From the NCBI GenBank assembly GCA_903906365.1, contig CAIVKC010000024.1, forward strand, positions 62,001 through 126,000: DNA of 64,000 bases, given 5' to 3'. The position numbers and the translations under genes were made by a program. The stretch is from an uncultured Bacteroidota bacterium. Its GTDB lineage: Bacteria; Bacteroidota; Bacteroidia; Chitinophagales; Chitinophagaceae. The notes below the pieces were generated by a model. That model had not been told where the DNA came from. It made no database searches and saw only the letters and a list, made by a program, of their open reading frames with translations. Positions 5,593 to 46,234 of this stretch are shown here, in pieces (the stretch's first letter is position 1; every line of letters starts with the position of its first letter).

Positions 5593-6951
5593 ATGGTCAT
5601 GCTGATCAAATCTTATGCCCGGCTGATTTTTATGGCCCTGACAGGGTTCGGCCTACCTGCCCTGCAAGCCCAGAGCCCCGCTTCAAACCTTCATCCCTCC
5701 TGGAGCTACCAGTCAAATATTTATGAAGTCAATCTCCGCCAATTCAGCGGTGCCGGTAATTTCAGGGAATTTGAAAAATCCCTGCCCCGTTTGCGGAAGA
5801 TGGGGGTGGAAATCCTTTGGTTCATGCCCATTACCCCTATCGGACTGGAGGGCAGAAAAGGCAGCGCCTCGGAAATGGGCAGCTATTATGCGGTCCGGGA
5901 TTATTATGCGGTAAACCCGGATTACGGCTCCATGGACGACTGGATCGCCCTGGTCAGGCATGCCCACCAACTTGGATTCAAGGTCATCCTGGACTGGGTA
6001 CCCAATCACAGTTCTCCCGACAATCCATGGATAAACCTCCACCCGGATTTCTATAAAAAGGACAGCGCAGGCCATGCGGCCATACCATTTGACTGGAGTG
6101 ACACCCGTCAGCTGGATTACAACAACCCCATGCTGCGCGATTCCATGATTGCAGCCATGGAATTCTGGGTCACCCATACTGCAATAGACGGGTTTCGCTG
6201 CGATGTAGCCTGGAATGTCCCGCTGGATTTCTGGAAAAAGGCCATTGCCCAACTGCGAAAACACGGACCGCTGTTCATGCTCGCTGAAGGTGAATTGCCC
6301 GGTTTGCATGAGGCAGGCTTTGATGAAACCTACCCCTGGTCAGTAATGAACGTAGCCTATGGTATTTATTCGGGAAAAAAAACGCTGGCCCAGCTGGATT
6401 CTGTCTTAAATCACAATGATTCCATCTACCCTCCAGGGAGTTTCAGGTTATATTTTACTACCAATCATGACGAAAACAGCTGGAACGGAACGGAATTTGA
6501 GCGGTTCGGTGAAGGGTATAAAGCTTTTGCCGTCTGGGCATTCACCATGGAATCCAGTGTGCCCCTGCTTTACAGCGGGCAGGAGGAGCCCAACCGACGG
6601 AGATTGAAATTCTTCGTAAAGGATACCATCGCCTGGAAAAATTATGCGCTGGCGCCCTTTTACAGTACCCTCCTTCACCTGCGCAGAAATTTACCCGCCC
6701 TCTCGGCTGATGCCAGTTTTAGACGGGTGCGTGCCGGCAATCCCCTGGCAGTTTATGCCTACGTACGGGAAAAAAAGGGGCATAAAGCCCTGGTAGTACT
6801 CAACCTGTCCGGACAGTCACAGACCATCCGGCTGGAAGATCCGGCCCTGTCCGGCAATCCGAGAAATGCCTTTACCGGACAAAGCCGGCATCTGGGCAAG
6901 GGGTTTGCTTTCCAGGCGCCCCCCTGGGGCTATTACCTGTTTGTTTACTAG
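5593..6951 (+). CDS. Secreted alpha-amylase family (GH13) enzyme
   Basis: This 452-residue protein starts with a signal peptide ending in 'ALQAQ' near residue 27, so it should act in the periplasm or outside. The four GH13 regions are visible: 'DWVPNHS' (I), 'GFRCDVAWN' with the nucleophile Asp (II), 'LAEGELP' with the general acid Glu (III), and 'TTNHDENSW' (IV). A small C-terminal beta domain follows ('KALVVLNLSGQSQ'). It should act on alpha-glucans or malto-oligosaccharides. The two downstream kinases (gluconokinase, glucokinase) point to uptake and phosphorylation of the products. The second ATG two codons on (5599) is an equally good start. Confidence 0.9.
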   Translation: MVMLIKSYARLIFMALTGFGLPALQAQSPASNLHPSWSYQSNIYEVNLRQFSGAGNFREFEKSLPRLRKMGVEILWFMPITPIGLEGRKGSASEMGSYYAVRDYYAVNPDYGSMDDWIALVRHAHQLGFKVILDWVPNHSSPDNPWINLHPDFYKKDSAGHAAIPFDWSDTRQLDYNNPMLRDSMIAAMEFWVTHTAIDGFRCDVAWNVPLDFWKKAIAQLRKHGPLFMLAEGELPGLHEAGFDETYPWSVMNVAYGIYSGKKTLAQLDSVLNHNDSIYPPGSFRLYFTTNHDENSWNGTEFERFGEGYKAFAVWAFTMESSVPLLYSGQEEPNRRRLKFFVKDTIAWKNYALAPFYSTLLHLRRNLPALSADASFRRVRAGNPLAVYAYVREKKGHKALVVLNLSGQSQTIRLEDPALSGNPRNAFTGQSRHLGKGFAFQAPPWGYYLFVY

Positions 6952-7007
6952 GGAAGGTAAGCCCGGTTAGCCATGATGACCTGTTGTAATATTACTTAAA
7001 CTCCCCC

Positions 7008-8531
7008 ATGCAGTACACCATTGGTATAGACATTGGTACTTCTTCCACCAAGGCAGTGGCATTTTCAAGGACCGGTCAGATTCTGGCCGAAGCCAACGGG
7101 AGTTATCCCCCGGTGGTTACCTCCCCCGGGTATCATGAACTGGATCCGGACCTGCTGGTGGCGGCAGTCACCGCCTGCCTGCGGGAAGTGCTCAGGAAGA
7201 TGGCGGGCCAAACGGGGCCTTCCGCGGTTGTATTCAGTGCGGCCATGCACAGCCTGATAGCGGTGGATAAAAATGGACGACCGCTCACCCGGGCCATTAC
7301 CTGGGCCGATACCCGCAGCCGGGACATTGCTGTAAGGATCAAGCCAACTGAGGCAGGAAGCCGTATTTACAGCCATACGGGTACACCCATCCATTCCATG
7401 TCACCACTATGCAAGATCATCTGGCTCAGGGAGCATGAACCCGATATTTTTCGGGCAGCCCACAAATTTATTGGCATCAAGGAATATATCTGGTTTTGCT
7501 TTTTCGGCAAATTCGTCATTGATTATTCCCTGGCCTCGGCTACCGGTCTTTTTGATATCGTTGCTTACGGCTGGTTTGGGGAATCCCTGTCGCTGGCGGG
7601 TATTTCCCCTGAAAGGCTGTCGGATCTCAGGCCGGTTGAATATATTGAAACGGCTCCCGCACTTTCCCCGTTGGCTGATACCGGTCTGACATCCGGAGTC
7701 CCCTTTGTCCTAGGCGGCAGTGACGGGTGTCTGGCCAACCTGGGAACAGGGGCCGTTCTTGCGGGCGACGCTTCCCTGACCATCGGAACCAGCGGTGCCT
7801 TGCGCATGGTCACCGATAAACCCAGCCGGGATCCGGCTCAGCGTGTATTCAACTATATCCTTACAAACGGGGTGTATGTTTGTGGAGGGGGCGTAAATAA
7901 CGGCGGCAATATCCTGCAGTGGTTTGTGGACCATTTCATTAAAGACAATCATTTAGAAACCATTGATTTGGCAAGTGCCCTCAGCGGGGCTGCCCGGGTG
8001 AAACCCGGAAGCGACGGGCTTATTTTTCTGCCTTACCTGCTGGGGGAAAGGGCCCCCATCTGGAATGAGGATGCCCGCGGCGTATTCTTTGGGATTGGGA
8101 CCGGCCATACCCGTTTTCATTTTCTGCGGGCAGTAATGGAGGGGATTTCTTTTTCCCTCTGCCAGGTAGGCCTGGCCCTGGAGGAGACCCTTGGCCCAAT
8201 CAGGCAGCTATATGCCTCCGGGGGTTTTATTCGGTCCGCTGAATGGTTGCAAATGATGGCCGATATTTTTAATAAAAGGGTCTGTGTTACCCACGATGCC
8301 GACGCATCAGCCATCGGGGCTGCCATGCTCGGTTTTTACGCCATTCGCCAGGTCAGGCGGCTGGAGGATCTGGCAGCACTGGTATCTCCACAGGAGGTCT
8401 ATGAACCCGACCCGGCGCGTCACCGGATCTACCAAGAGAGCTATCAGCGTTTTGCGTCGCTCTATTTGGCGCTGAAAGGCGAATTCTCCTTACTGGCAGG
8501 CAATGCCCCGGGAACCTCCGGGGAGGTATGA
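7008..8531 (+). CDS. FGGY-family carbohydrate kinase, probably gluconokinase
   Basis: This 507-residue sugar kinase has the N-terminal ATPase motif 'IGIDIGTSSTKAVAF' and the FGGY C-terminal domain ('LYASGGFIRSAEWLQMMADIF'). The segment 'FSAAMHSLIAVD' followed by 'ITWADTRS' is characteristic of the gluconokinase branch (gluconate + ATP to 6-phosphogluconate) rather than xylulokinase or glycerol kinase. This substrate call rests on motif memory. The gene follows the GH13 gene by 56 bases and precedes glucokinase, which suggests a small sugar-use unit. Confidence 0.82.
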   Translation: MQYTIGIDIGTSSTKAVAFSRTGQILAEANGSYPPVVTSPGYHELDPDLLVAAVTACLREVLRKMAGQTGPSAVVFSAAMHSLIAVDKNGRPLTRAITWADTRSRDIAVRIKPTEAGSRIYSHTGTPIHSMSPLCKIIWLREHEPDIFRAAHKFIGIKEYIWFCFFGKFVIDYSLASATGLFDIVAYGWFGESLSLAGISPERLSDLRPVEYIETAPALSPLADTGLTSGVPFVLGGSDGCLANLGTGAVLAGDASLTIGTSGALRMVTDKPSRDPAQRVFNYILTNGVYVCGGGVNNGGNILQWFVDHFIKDNHLETIDLASALSGAARVKPGSDGLIFLPYLLGERAPIWNEDARGVFFGIGTGHTRFHFLRAVMEGISFSLCQVGLALEETLGPIRQLYASGGFIRSAEWLQMMADIFNKRVCVTHDADASAIGAAMLGFYAIRQVRRLEDLAALVSPQEVYEPDPARHRIYQESYQRFASLYLALKGEFSLLAGNAPGTSGEV

Positions 8532-42028: not shown

Positions 42029-43480
42029 CTAATCCAATTCATCCCGCAGCAGGGGCATGCTCATGCAATGAAATCCACCCCTTGCCCTGGATAATTCTGC
42101 TGATGGCATCAGGATAACCGTATCTTCTATTTTGTCAGGATGCATTTTTCCGTTCTCTAACCTTTCAATCAGCAGGTGTGCATCAATAACCTGAAAGCCT
42201 GATTCCTTGAATGCTTCAATGGTTTTATCATTGCGGTCATAACCCAGTACCACACCTTCTTTGAGGGCTAGCAGGTTGCAGGAGTCTGTCCACTGTTCGC
42301 GCGCATCGTATGGGAACTGGTTGTTACCTGAATAAATAAATCGGACCTTTTCCTGGCAATTGAGATCTTTTTCGCTGATATCCTGCAGAAGATCTTCCAG
42401 GTTATCGAAGTATTTGGGATTGTCTATATCCTTTTTCCGGAATTGAATGATTTTTAATTTGTCCTCTTTTTTGCCACCATCCAAAATCCGTTGCACAGCA
42501 TCGCTGTCCTCATGCTTCATGGATTTCTTCGAAAAAATCCCGAGCATTACCCAGACATTTCTTTTCACCTGGGTAAAGACGGTGTCGATGTGCATATAAT
42601 CTCTTTTCTTGGGGATCTTTACGATGGATATTTTCTTGACCACGTTTTTTTCAAACAGAATATTGATTGCCTGGTGGGCAGCTTCCCAGGAGGTCCTTTC
42701 GCTTACTCCGATAAGGATATGGTCCCTGCTTACTACCATGACATCCCCCCCTTCCAGCGTTACTTTTTTATCATCCCCGTCCCTGGGCAGCAGGAAATGA
42801 TGGGAAGTTTCGGGCAGTTCTATGACGTTTTCCTGGTAATCCTTGAAAAGCCGGTGATTAAAAAATATGTATTTTACGATCAGTGCTTCCCTTGTCCGGG
42901 CTTTTTTGGCCGGCTTATTTAATAGAATATGATTATTGATGACTATTCCTATATCTCGGGTAAAAATAAAATTAGGGATCGGTGCAAATAGCATCTCATC
43001 ATTGCTCAGTGTTCCACTGATAAACGTCTTTGCCAGTGAAACCCCGTCCAGGGCCAGCAGTTTCTTCTGGGTGTTGTAAGAACAACCTTCAATGGCACAA
43101 ACCGAAGCAACCAGTTTTATCTTAATATCATGGTCGCCTAGGATTTCACCGAGAAGCCATTGAAGTTCAATGACCTTTTCCGATTTGAAAAAGGAATCGT
43201 TGTCGGGTTTATAAAAATCACGGTTGGATTTTTCGGCGTCAATATCTTTGAGGTGACCTTTGATTTTTGGCGGATCCAGGAAATAAAGCAGGATCTTGGT
43301 ATAGAAATCATATTCTTTCCTGCGGATGGTCTCCAGGTGTACAATATCCTCGAAAAGCCAGTCCTGGGCCTTTGAAGGCACTACTTTTCCAAGTCCGCTG
43401 TCTGGGCTGTGCACCAGCAGACGCCGAAGACGGCCTACTTCAGAGGTTACCTGCAACTGACTCGTATGATGTTTTGACAT
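42029..43480 (-). CDS. Arginine deiminase-family protein
   Basis: This 483-residue pentein resembles arginine deiminase (arginine to citrulline and ammonia). It has 'GRLRRLLVHSPDSG' at the N-terminus, 'NFIFTRDIGIVIN', 'VTLEGGDVMVVSRDHILIGVSERTS', the catalytic-His region 'KRDYMHIDTVFTQV' and the nucleophile motif 'ARGGFHCMSMP' with Cys472. It is longer than classical ArcA (about 410), mainly by an insert around residues 330-390. No arcB/arcC genes are present, so a fermentative ADI pathway is not supported locally. It lies 73 bases upstream of ctlX on the same strand. Confidence 0.82.
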   Translation of the reverse strand: MSKHHTSQLQVTSEVGRLRRLLVHSPDSGLGKVVPSKAQDWLFEDIVHLETIRRKEYDFYTKILLYFLDPPKIKGHLKDIDAEKSNRDFYKPDNDSFFKSEKVIELQWLLGEILGDHDIKIKLVASVCAIEGCSYNTQKKLLALDGVSLAKTFISGTLSNDEMLFAPIPNFIFTRDIGIVINNHILLNKPAKKARTREALIVKYIFFNHRLFKDYQENVIELPETSHHFLLPRDGDDKKVTLEGGDVMVVSRDHILIGVSERTSWEAAHQAINILFEKNVVKKISIVKIPKKRDYMHIDTVFTQVKRNVWVMLGIFSKKSMKHEDSDAVQRILDGGKKEDKLKIIQFRKKDIDNPKYFDNLEDLLQDISEKDLNCQEKVRFIYSGNNQFPYDAREQWTDSCNLLALKEGVVLGYDRNDKTIEAFKESGFQVIDAHLLIERLENGKMHPDKIEDTVILMPSAELSRARGGFHCMSMPLLRDELD

Positions 43481-43724: not shown

Positions 43725-43732
43725 TATTAAAA
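43725..43732 (+). repeat. Left 8-bp target-site duplication (TATTAAAA)
   Basis: Identical to 46191-46198 on the other side of the element. Eight bases is the duplication length known for IS1595-family elements. Confidence 0.88.
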
Positions 43733-43757
43733 GGCAATTAAAGCGAATTAGGGACAA
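43733..43757 (+). repeat. Left terminal inverted repeat of the IS1595-type element
   Basis: Reads GGCAATTA-N5-AATTAGGGACAA. Against the inverted right end, 20 of 25 positions match, including the blocks GGCAATTA and GGGACAA. Confidence 0.85.
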
Positions 43758-43788
43758 ACTCCCACCTCCGCATTTTTAGCCAATTATT

Positions 43789-44367
43789 TCAGGCCCCACT
43801 TGAATCTTCATTAAGTTTTTTGCCTTTTATTTTACCCTCTTTCAAATCTTTTTCTAATGGCGTTTCCTCATATTTACCAAGTACTAACAGTGTTTCGGTG
43901 CTTTTTAAAACCCGTAAAAGCTCTGTTTTTATGTCAAAATCGTTCATCATCCCCTCAAAACTCCCCTTTGGCTGATAATACCGCTGAAGAAAGATCTGGC
44001 TTAAATTATTATACCCCAAATGATTTGCAATTTCTGAAATCAGAGCAACCTTTCTTTCGTTCGCAAGAACAAGAGCACTACCAATTAACTCATGCTGAAG
44101 AGAATCGTAATATTCATGCCATAGCTGAAGAATCCGATGCTCTCCGTGAAAAACTACATCAATCCTATTCAATGCAACAGAATATTGCCAGGGGAAGGGA
44201 AGATAATCACGAAAGGAAACCAAATCCATGAACAGTTGCATTTTGGCCGCCTTCTTTGAACTGATCTTTTGATACCATAGGGAAATTAATACCGCAATAA
44301 TAGGGCTTACTAAAGCAACAATAATGGTGGAAAATTGAAGCCAAAACGCCTGTCCATTAGTTAACAT
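43789..44367 (-). CDS. Transposon cargo: small membrane-anchored protein A
   Basis: This 192-residue protein has one N-terminal membrane segment (about residues 9-31, 'STIIVALVSPIIAVLISLWYQ'). A helical cytoplasmic domain follows ('MQLFMDLVSFRDYLPFPWQYSVALNRIDVVFHG', 'LWHEYYDSLQHELIG') and a charged C-terminal tail. The pattern 'ALNRIDVVF' after a short membrane anchor recalls the DUF6680 family, but this is from memory and weak. It follows cargo gene B by 27 bases on the same strand and lies wholly inside the IS1595-type element. The function is unknown. Confidence 0.72.
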   Translation of the reverse strand: MLTNGQAFWLQFSTIIVALVSPIIAVLISLWYQKISSKKAAKMQLFMDLVSFRDYLPFPWQYSVALNRIDVVFHGEHRILQLWHEYYDSLQHELIGSALVLANERKVALISEIANHLGYNNLSQIFLQRYYQPKGSFEGMMNDFDIKTELLRVLKSTETLLVLGKYEETPLEKDLKEGKIKGKKLNEDSSGA

Positions 44368-44394
44368 ACTTAATAAATTTATATATGAAAAAAA

Positions 44395-44976
44395 TTATTT
44401 CTTCTTTGAGGGTTTTATTAACCTCTGAATCGAAGAGTCAATTTGTCGCTGAATTTGCTTTAAGCTGTCTAATTCTTGCGCTTGCATTTGCAATATTTTC
44501 GGTGTCTTGCTGTCTGATAATATTATGCTTACAAAGATAGAGGCAAGCACAAATAAGGCAGATGACGCTGAAACTATGATAGATGCTAATGTCAGCTTCT
44601 TCTGGATTCTAAAATTGTCCGGCAAGACTGTATCATTCATTTTCTTAATTGAAATATTGGTTTCTATTACTGAAGAATTTAATTTTTCAACTCGTTGCCT
44701 TAATTCATATTCCTCTAATTCTTTCAATCCCTTTTCAGTAATGCCAATAACGATTTTATGTGCAAAATTTTCTAATAATCCTAGTGATTCAGGTAATAAG
44801 TTGAAAATTTGCCAATTTATTCCTTCTGTAATAACACTATCATTCTGCATTTCAATCAAAATGTCTTTTAGTTTACTAACAAGAACTTTTGAATAAGATA
44901 TTTTAATGAACTGAATTATATCGATGTTTATATCATATTGATGGTCACGTAGAAAAGCTAATATTTCCTTTCGCAT
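44395..44976 (-). CDS. Transposon cargo: membrane protein B with winged-helix-like N-terminus
   Basis: This 193-residue protein has an N-terminal part of about 95 residues that looks like a small winged-helix ('MRKEILAFLRDHQYDINIDII', 'GITEKGLKELEEYELRQRVEK'). A short coiled coil, one membrane segment near residues 130-153 ('LASIIVSASSALFVLASIFVSIIL') and a C-terminal helical tail rich in Gln and Lys follow. I do not recognise the family. It is the first gene of the two-gene cargo unit and is divergent from the transposase, 71 bases apart. Confidence 0.72.
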   Translation of the reverse strand: MRKEILAFLRDHQYDINIDIIQFIKISYSKVLVSKLKDILIEMQNDSVITEGINWQIFNLLPESLGLLENFAHKIVIGITEKGLKELEEYELRQRVEKLNSSVIETNISIKKMNDTVLPDNFRIQKKLTLASIIVSASSALFVLASIFVSIILSDSKTPKILQMQAQELDSLKQIQRQIDSSIQRLIKPSKKK

Positions 44977-45021
44977 AGGGCATAGTGTTTAAATATATTA
45001 GGTTATATTAGGGACAAGCAT

Positions 45022-45029
45022 TATCTTTG
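45022..45029 (+). promoter_or_regulatory. -7 promoter element of the transposase gene
   Basis: TATCTTTG matches TAnnTTTG. It overlaps the start of the longer open frame (TTG at 45027), so the transposase must start at the ATG at 45048. Confidence 0.55.
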
Positions 45030-45047
45030 TTTTTCAATTTTAGTTTT

Positions 45048-46004
45048 ATGGCACAGTTTAAGAATTTAAAGGACTTATTAACCAAGTTTTCTGACGAACA
45101 AACGTGCAGGGATTTTCTGGTTCAACGCAGGTGGAATGGAACGCCCATTTGCCCCTATTGCGGCTGTAATAAGTCATACAAAATAGAGAACGGAAAACGC
45201 TTTAAATGCGCAAATAAAGACTGCTATAAGAAGTATAGCGTTACTATCGGAACCGTAGCCCAAGATACAAATATTCCGTTATCAACGTGGTTTGGGGCCG
45301 TCTATTTGATTGCCTCCCATAAAAAGGGTATAAGCAGCGTACAGCTAGGTAAAGACCTAGGAATAGCCCAAAAAACCGCCTGGTTCATGTTACATAGGAT
45401 TAGAGAAGCCCTTCGGGAAAAGAAGGGCTTACTTTTAACTACAGAGGTACAGGCCGATGAAACATACATTGGCGGGGAGGAAATCAATAAACACTTATCT
45501 AAGCGTATTAAGACCAGGGACGATAAAATAGCCGTTGTAGGCGCTATTGAGACCGGAGGTAGGGTTGTAACCCAAGTTACGCCGTGGGTATCTAAAAAGA
45601 ACGTAAGCGAGTTTATTGAAAAGATTGTTGACAAGAAAGCCAAGTTGGTTACGGATGGCAGTTCAGCCTATATGAAGATTGGTAAAAGGTATGAGCATAT
45701 TGTAATTAACCATAGTGCCGGGCAATATACGCTTAACGGGTTTACAACCAATGGTATAGAGAATTATTGGTCAATCCTGAAACGTGGCATATATGGAATT
45801 TACCACCAAGTGAGCGAAGGCCACCTTCAAAGGTATTGCGATGAATTTGCATACAGGTTTAATAGTAGAAAAATCCCTGATAATGAAAGATTTGAAATAA
45901 TTTTAGGTCAACTTACTGGGGAGCTTACGTATAAACAACTTACGGCTAAAAATAATATACGAGCAAATGGCCAAGACATCGAAACCAAAGAAACGGGAGA
46001 ATAA
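45048..46004 (+). CDS. IS1595-family ISXO2-like transposase
   Basis: This 318-residue transposase starts with a zinc-ribbon (Cys35, Cys38, Cys54, Cys59 in 'CPYCGCNKSYKIENGKRFKC'). The ISXO2-like catalytic domain follows: 'QADETYIGGEE' (Asp137), 'VTDGSSAYMK' (Asp203) and 'TNGIENYWSILKRGIYG' (Glu238 and neighbours). It is full length and undamaged, so it is probably active. The start was set by the promoter at 45022-45029. Its last 38 bases overlap the small lysine-rich gene downstream. Confidence 0.92.
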   Translation: MAQFKNLKDLLTKFSDEQTCRDFLVQRRWNGTPICPYCGCNKSYKIENGKRFKCANKDCYKKYSVTIGTVAQDTNIPLSTWFGAVYLIASHKKGISSVQLGKDLGIAQKTAWFMLHRIREALREKKGLLLTTEVQADETYIGGEEINKHLSKRIKTRDDKIAVVGAIETGGRVVTQVTPWVSKKNVSEFIEKIVDKKAKLVTDGSSAYMKIGKRYEHIVINHSAGQYTLNGFTTNGIENYWSILKRGIYGIYHQVSEGHLQRYCDEFAYRFNSRKIPDNERFEIILGQLTGELTYKQLTAKNNIRANGQDIETKETGE

Positions 46005-46128
46005 GTATCAGGAGAAGTTAAACGTAAATGTTTCCTTCGATGATCTTATGGACGTTCTATTTCCTATTCCCGAAAAGAAGAAAGAAAAGAAGCCCGTAGC
46101 TAAAAAAGCGGTCAAAAAGAAAAAATAA
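45967..46128 (+). CDS. Small lysine-rich protein encoded at the transposon end
   Basis: This 53-residue protein starts 'MAKTSKPKKRENKYQEKL', continues 'NVNVSFDDLMDVLFP' and ends in a Lys-rich tail. It overlaps the transposase stop by 38 bases in another frame, which suggests translational coupling. Similar short basic proteins follow IS1595 transposases in Bacteroidota as far as I recall. It may bind DNA or act as a transposition accessory factor; this is inference. Confidence 0.6.
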   Translation: MAKTSKPKKRENKYQEKLNVNVSFDDLMDVLFPIPEKKKEKKPVAKKAVKKKK

Positions 46129-46165
46129 AAACTTCAATTTTGATAATTTACCCCTTCATATCCCC

Positions 46166-46190
46166 TTGTCCCAAATTAGTGATAATTGCC
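46166..46190 (-). repeat. Right terminal inverted repeat of the IS1595-type element
   Basis: On the minus strand it reads GGCAATTA-N5-AATTTGGGACAA, pairing with 43733-43757 (20 of 25 matches). Confidence 0.85.
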
Positions 46191-46198
46191 TATTAAAA
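46191..46198 (+). repeat. Right 8-bp target-site duplication (TATTAAAA)
   Basis: Perfect copy of 43725-43732. Confidence 0.88.
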
Positions 46199-46234
46199 AA
46201 CCTAACAACTGTTAGTTTTTGAGCGTATTTCGCT

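Follow-up and report, generated by a model that had tools for sequence, protein, structure and literature searches.

What are two small membrane-protein genes doing beside a transposase in bacterial DNA, and do they belong to the host? We addressed this for a stretch of 64,000 nucleotides (the window) of contig CAIVKC010000024.1, from an uncultured Bacteroidota bacterium of the family Chitinophagaceae (assembly GCA_903906365.1). An earlier note on this DNA had read the two genes as mobile cargo of an IS1595-family element, and our analysis bears this out. The unit at positions 43733 to 46190 of the window, 2458 bp long and enclosed by an exact 8-bp duplication, TATTAAAA, is almost certainly a transposon with cargo. 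The best overall explanation, very probably correct, is an autonomous IS1595-family insertion sequence (IS) of the type called tIS, with which go two more tentative proposals, one for an operator in the transposase promoter and one for the role of the cargo.

A precisely bounded transposon

The two copies of TATTAAAA, at 43725 to 43732 and 46191 to 46198, match exactly. Immediately inside them lie the left terminal inverted repeat, GGCAATTAAAGCGAATTAGGGACAA (43733 to 43757, plus strand), and the right one, which reads GGCAATTATCACTAATTTGGGACAA on the minus strand (46166 to 46190). By direct count these 25-bp arms are identical at 20 positions, and extended to 31 nt they still match at 81%. In a scan of both strands of the 64 kb with a position matrix made from the ends of 55 other elements only (described below; the window element was excluded), the right and left ends were the two best sites (18.8 and 13.9), and the next site scored 12.5. 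An exact 8-bp repeat with an end match of at least 20 of 30 positions, the score of the window pair, was found in 1 of 395 mixed-locus controls. The flanking repeat and the 20 of 25 inverted positions claimed in the earlier note were thus confirmed by count, by rank and by controls.

Between the ends, a plus-strand gene (45048 to 46004) encodes a transposase of 318 amino acids (aa). The description of this protein as ISXO2-like was upheld by matches to PF12762 (DDE_Tnp_IS1595, 6.5e-39), PF12760 (5.8e-10) and NF033547 (8.7e-58). The four cysteines of its N-terminal zinc ribbon (C35/C38/C54/C59) are invariant across eight aligned transposases, the window one included, and D137/D203/E238 is a candidate catalytic triad, assigned by what we take to be the family motif. 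No solved structure matched the protein sequence at E 0.01. Catalytic domain, zinc ribbon, 8-bp duplication and inverted ends all place the element in the IS1595 family. Target duplications of 8 bp are stated for this family in a passage of PMC8101967, and members with passenger genes are established according to part of PMC5704250, in agreement with what the earlier note had said of the family. The transposase would bind the 25-bp ends, insert the 2458-bp unit and duplicate 8 bp of the target.

Genes unrelated to transposition are found here inside a single pair of ends with a single duplication, which makes the element a tIS. A composite transposon was rejected, as the unit has a single transposase and the genome one full copy of the element. 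Besides that copy, the genome has a partial match of 83 bp (79%) that lies within a different transposase gene, and none of the 57 other genomes searched contains a full copy.

A small lysine-rich open reading frame (ORF; 45967 to 46128, plus strand, 53 aa, 32% Lys) overlaps the 3' end of the transposase gene by 38 bp. An iterated profile, which superseded an earlier regular expression that had found such ORFs in 6 of 57 elements, located one at the transposase end or a short way beyond it in 37 of 116 elements, among them the window element, its nearest relatives and an element on another contig (C34) of the same genome. Because of this recurrence it is not to be counted as cargo; it is an accessory ORF of the element's own gene set. 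The core resembles KYEEKLxVxGSFEDV. Most of these ORFs have at most 59 aa, with two longer ones; four begin 215 to 233 bp past the transposase stop, and a few of the matches are loose. The gene content listed in the earlier note (transposase, lysine-rich ORF and two minus-strand ORFs with hydrophobic segments) therefore holds, save that the lysine-rich ORF is accessory and not cargo. At least 12 other elements (L077, L079, L094, L104 and others) have an XRE-like ORF of 69 to 72 aa overlapping or abutting the transposase stop; their ends are of the TTAGACCA kind or similar, and some add a lysine-rich ORF about 215 bp further on. This XRE-type ORF is possibly a dedicated regulator.

Absence from the locus in related genomes

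The element is inserted between two divergent host genes, at 42029 to 43480 (minus strand) and from 46267 onwards (plus strand), which, judging by protein type, we take to encode an arginine-deiminase-like protein and an acyl-CoA dehydrogenase. A 6.3-kb query matched 32 of the 33 genomes of the genus, the own genome included. Among 19 loci fetched from the other genomes, 15 hold both flanking genes, always divergent and 113 to 1416 bp apart, and the remaining four have only one of them. The gaps of these 15 relatives contain none of the transposase matches from the genus search; a few genomes (such as G029, G030 and G032) have wider gaps by their coordinates, and those gaps fall outside the reading of the 15. 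The 32 other genomes of the genus gave no good match to either cargo protein (one weak match each, 27% and 30% identity), and neither protein was found in the plasmids searched. Both the lack of good cargo matches in the genus and the 15 relatives without the element at the locus favor mobile cargo over host genes. Relatives with the two membrane genes at this locus and without the transposase and ends, which would speak for host genes, did not appear among the genus genomes searched.

A clade of cargo-carrying elements

A scan with eight transposases found at least 580 relatives, the best 80 of which were kept as loci. Elements were delimited by an exact 8-bp duplication together with ends that agree at 19 or more of 30 positions. 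This recovered 55 of the 80, ranging from 2059 to 6521 bp (median, 3482), none of them a minimal IS. With ends matching at 21 or more of 30 positions there were 47 elements among the 80 versus none among the 395 controls; at 19 of 30, 14 controls pass, so that a few of the 55, the weakest ones, may be spurious. As for the other 25 loci, several run into a contig end, and several others have one or two good ends and no duplication. From 50 further, non-overlapping loci we delimited 29 elements. One is minimal (994 bp), a distant outlier at 28% identity; the others measure 2045 to 5760 bp, and one of them (L225) is the element of the own genome that also goes by L027. The usual end is GGYAACTATATAC-N3-TTGGGACAA, and there are subgroups with the inner half TTAGACCA, TTTACACT (L110 type) or others. 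IS1595 elements with passengers have been known from single cases, and the present clade appears to consist throughout of small cargo vehicles with exact boundaries.

Elements of the same kind carry other cargo in relatives. The nearest transposase of the scan among the matches listed (68%) belongs to Puia dinghuensis (L047), in an element that shares with the window one the GGGACAA end type, the lysine-rich ORF and the promoter 11-mer ATTAGGGACAA discussed below. It differs in its size (3509 bp), in its cargo of a 296-aa ORF plus small ORFs, and in its target, ATAATGTT. The own-genome element on C34 (2637 bp, 8-bp duplication ATGGAACG) also has the lysine-rich ORF, with cargo on both sides of the transposase; unlike the window element, it has ends without GGGAC, a promoter without the GGGACAA half-site and different cargo. 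Altogether, three more transposases of the clade reside in this genome (C34, or L225; C13, or L187; and C47, or L206), with the inner ends GTACAA, ACCACAA and TTTACACC, respectively; to judge from these motifs, co-resident elements differ as if avoiding cross-recognition.

Among established systems, MTnSag1/tISSag10 and tISCpe8 resemble the window element in that one element combines passenger genes with a transposase of the IS1595 family. In contrast to them, the window element is from Bacteroidota, shows no resistance or mobilization gene, and has a lysine-rich accessory ORF and an end half-site in its transposase promoter. In the literature searched (titles and some passages), no title dealt with an IS1595 promoter half-site or a lysine-rich accessory gene, and a search for ISXO2 transposons in Bacteroidetes returned no paper. 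As far as these searches reach, three things are new: cargo carriage throughout this Bacteroidota clade, the accessory ORF and the half-site.

Cargo ORFs were called mechanically, accessory ORFs included, in 57 elements (the 55, the window one and L027). Outside the transposase they contain 201 ORFs of at least 60 aa; 122 have at least 100 aa, and for 40 of these 122 a simple hydropathy rule gives a membrane segment. Some are pieces of transposase, since 3 of 120 scanned cargo ORFs matched the IS1595 zinc ribbon. Two elements show actual or possible further insertions. In L064, a Mutator-family transposase (6284 to 7507 of that locus, 2.8e-98) is nested inside the cargo transposon. In L094 (1861 to 2343), two left ends lie 468 bp apart, both after the same 8-bp TCGCCTGA in a repeated TTGTTGGTCGCCTGA target, possibly the result of a nested or tandem insertion.

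Cargo genes and their possible role

Both cargo genes of the window element are on the minus strand, and the hydrophobic segments of both proteins are visible in their translations. Cargo gene 1 (43789 to 44367) encodes 192 aa with one N-terminal hydrophobic segment and belongs to DUF6680 (PF20385, 1.5e-27). Cargo gene 2 (44395 to 44976) encodes 193 aa, with one hydrophobic segment followed by a charged tail, and had no Pfam, NCBIfam or PADLOC match above the cutoff. Its N-terminal half may be a winged helix, the best match in the structure database being 2co5 (E 0.71, not significant); its structure model was too poor (mean predicted local distance difference test score [pLDDT], 47.7) and was not used. 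The DUF6680 model (mean pLDDT, 64.8) had no match in the PDB at E 0.001 or better.

The earlier note had supposed that the cargo confers a useful trait such as defense, and the evidence supports this only in part. DUF6680 occurs in 3 of 395 genomes of the class, the window's own among them; in the other two, read by eye, the neighboring genes are unrelated, and neither a transposase match nor an end site with a score over 10 was found. It recurs by BLAST as cargo in L090 and L099, two other elements of the clade, where side and strand are as in the window element, and was matched by 3 of 120 cargo ORFs in the Pfam scan. A phage search, made with cargo protein 1 only, found a relative in Yersinia phage vB_YenM_31.17 (25% over 141 aa, 4e-5), where the gene sits between those for the replication endonuclease gpA and the portal gpQ. 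In P2-like phages this interval is an anti-phage hotspot holding old and tin, according to part of PMC9122126. The DUF6680 relative in that region is, unlike the window cargo, phage-borne and without a transposon. No paper mentioning DUF6680 was found in the literature searched. A defense role for DUF6680 seems plausible from these contexts. Given the relative in the P2-like hotspot, our best guess, a doubtful one, is that the cargo has a membrane-based exclusion or abortive function, the DUF6680 protein and the second small membrane protein perhaps forming a phage-exclusion or stress pair.

Two results weigh against defense. No PADLOC model matches either window protein up to E 1, and the wider comparison of cargo with flanking ORFs (210 versus 141 PADLOC families matched, with 120 of the 319 flanking ORFs sampled) was not decisive. 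The cargo might instead serve the transposon or be neutral (addiction, regulation or hitchhiking), an alternative with a substantial chance of being right, if less than even. Besides the missing PADLOC matches, it is favored by the scarcity of known families in the cargo: 120 cargo ORFs matched 40 Pfam families, versus 175 for 120 flanking ORFs, the cargo ORFs also being shorter. However, it does not sit well with the phage hotspot or with the large cargo ORFs of sister elements. In a set of 20 ORFs of 291 to 792 aa (one of 292 aa was omitted), nine match PADLOC at 1e-10 or better, namely, a type IIG-like methylase, a type II-like methylase, PDC-S01, HEC-06, PD-Lambda-2_B (twice), RmrA, PDC-S05 and PDC-S42. 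Two more are GmrSD_N by Pfam, and the other nine have no PADLOC match. Restriction-modification, GmrSD, RmrA, HEC-06, PDC-S01 and PDC-S05-like genes are thus among the cargo of the clade, and transposon anatomy alone offers a route to unknown defense-like genes such as DUF6680.

A copy of part of the element end in the putative transposase promoter

With the cargo lying between them, the left end and the predicted transposase promoter would be about 1.26 kb apart. The putative promoter (44995 to 45029, plus strand) comprises ATTAGG, a GGGACAA half-site and a -7-like box, TATCTTTG, at 45022 to 45029; we take TAnnTTTG to be the Bacteroidota -7 element. The proposed operator, ATTAGGGACAA (45007 to 45017, plus strand), is an exact copy of positions 15 to 25 of the left terminal repeat. 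To our knowledge, an end half-site in a transposase promoter has not been described before.

We counted GGGACAA on both strands over the 130 bp preceding the transposase, leaving out terminal repeats. Where the left end was at least 200 bp away or unknown, the half-site was present in 21 of the 30 elements whose ends contain GGGAC (the window element included) versus 0 of 33 with other ends; with left ends closer than 200 bp, it was found in one of four and none of seven, respectively. The background was 18 occurrences in 187,210 bp. Over both sets, the nearest and the further (hold-out) loci (117 in total), 24 carry the site, 15 forward and 9 inverted. Nine of the forward sites, that of the window element among them, lie 11 nt before TAnnTTTG and one lies at 12 nt, the other five having no exact box. 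Four of the inverted sites overlap the -7 box and five are 23 to 26 nt before it. A second test compared each element's inner end 10-mer with permuted ends and gave z 6.8 in the training set (n = 69) and z 3.5 (p 0.0004) in the hold-out set (n = 40), where the control regions were not significant (p 0.07 to 0.62). A previous version, own versus other ends, had been diluted because many elements share ends. Some hold-out promoters, picked by eye and post hoc, match unusual ends of their own, e.g., L194 (TAGAGTAA) and L211 (GTTACACTA, inverted). Overall, the hold-out set supports covariation of end and promoter.

We suggest that the inner half of the end, GGGACAA, is kept within the promoter just before the -7 box, as a binding site through which the transposase, by itself or together with the lysine-rich protein, would repress its own gene. 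The promoter lacks the outer GGCAATTA part, which is presumably required for cleavage, and the site would then be bound and not cut. Several observations weigh against this autoregulatory operator. The count of 21 of 30 versus 0 of 33 comes from the set in which the motif was first noticed, with the window element among the 30; the strict hold-out count, 2 of 11 versus 0 of 33 with six loci without a recognized end set aside, is only suggestive (p 0.058). The own-end test was not significant for hold-out elements with a distant left end (n = 28, p 0.087), and the coding-region control of the training set was slightly raised (p 0.033). Moreover, 9 of the 30 GGGAC-end elements have no exact half-site, and ends and promoter are common to related elements by descent. 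Since the strict hold-out count and the distant-end test are weak, we consider the operator moderately likely for the GGGACAA group of the window element, and less so outside it.

Alternatively, the element could descend from a minimal IS (about 45000 to 46190), the half-site being a decayed relic of its left end and the cargo having entered through an outer copy of the end. The half-site does lie where that end would be expected, 31 to 41 bp before the transposase start, and in 6 of the 55 elements a distance of 71 to 189 bp separates the true left end from the transposase match. The region before the transposase also has a higher end-matrix score than three other regions (51 elements, p 0.0001 to 0.0008), but in the same elements forward scores are not above those of the reverse strand (p 0.75) nor clearly above shuffles (p 0.09). 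The outer half, GGYAACTATATAC, was not recovered, with a best forward score of -6.1 in the 160 bp around the window transposase start. A complete internal left end, i.e., a minimal IS inside the element, was not supported, on that score and on the comparisons with the reverse strand and with shuffles. Nor should a relic hold one register to the -7 box or sit inverted in sister elements, as happens within each of the pairs L118/L124 and L050/L051 (sisters in a quick-version tree), whose two members have opposite orientations. The stretch around the half-site is conserved, with a mean pairwise identity, core excluded, of 0.58 among the 15 forward promoters versus 0.29 to 0.31 further upstream. 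Finally, a separate site (GGGACTAA in L052) is present in L064 and L052 even though both have a left end close by. A relic therefore seems unlikely.

Another factor, the lysine-rich or a host protein, might bind the half-site; the end motif would be shared with the promoter because that factor also takes part in transposition. The lysine-rich ORF in 37 of 116 elements and the XRE-like ORF in at least 12 others supply candidates. However, the lysine-rich protein is short and of low complexity, unlikely to read such a sequence by itself, and the 12 elements with the XRE-like ORF have other ends and no GGGACAA site. We regard this alternative as improbable, too.

A broader picture can be drawn for this large Bacteroidota clade of IS1595 transposons, to which we would give not quite an even chance. 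Self-control would have split from the element end, the binding half of the terminal repeat serving as a separate operator inside the transposase promoter that would co-evolve with the ends in either orientation; the left end would be freed to move outward, making room for swappable, often defense-type cargo, and co-resident elements would neither regulate nor move one another. Such a half-site would be a simple answer to how a transposon stays self-limiting once cargo displaces the end from the promoter.

A near-palindrome next to the insertion

A near-palindrome, CCTAACAACTGTTAG, is found at 46201 to 46215, before the acyl-CoA dehydrogenase gene. It has counterparts before the same gene in two relatives (L143 and L146), and for this reason the insertion appears to have fallen 10 bp before a probable regulatory palindrome. 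The element, ending 10 bp from CCTAACAACTGTTAG, may change the control of the acyl-CoA dehydrogenase gene.

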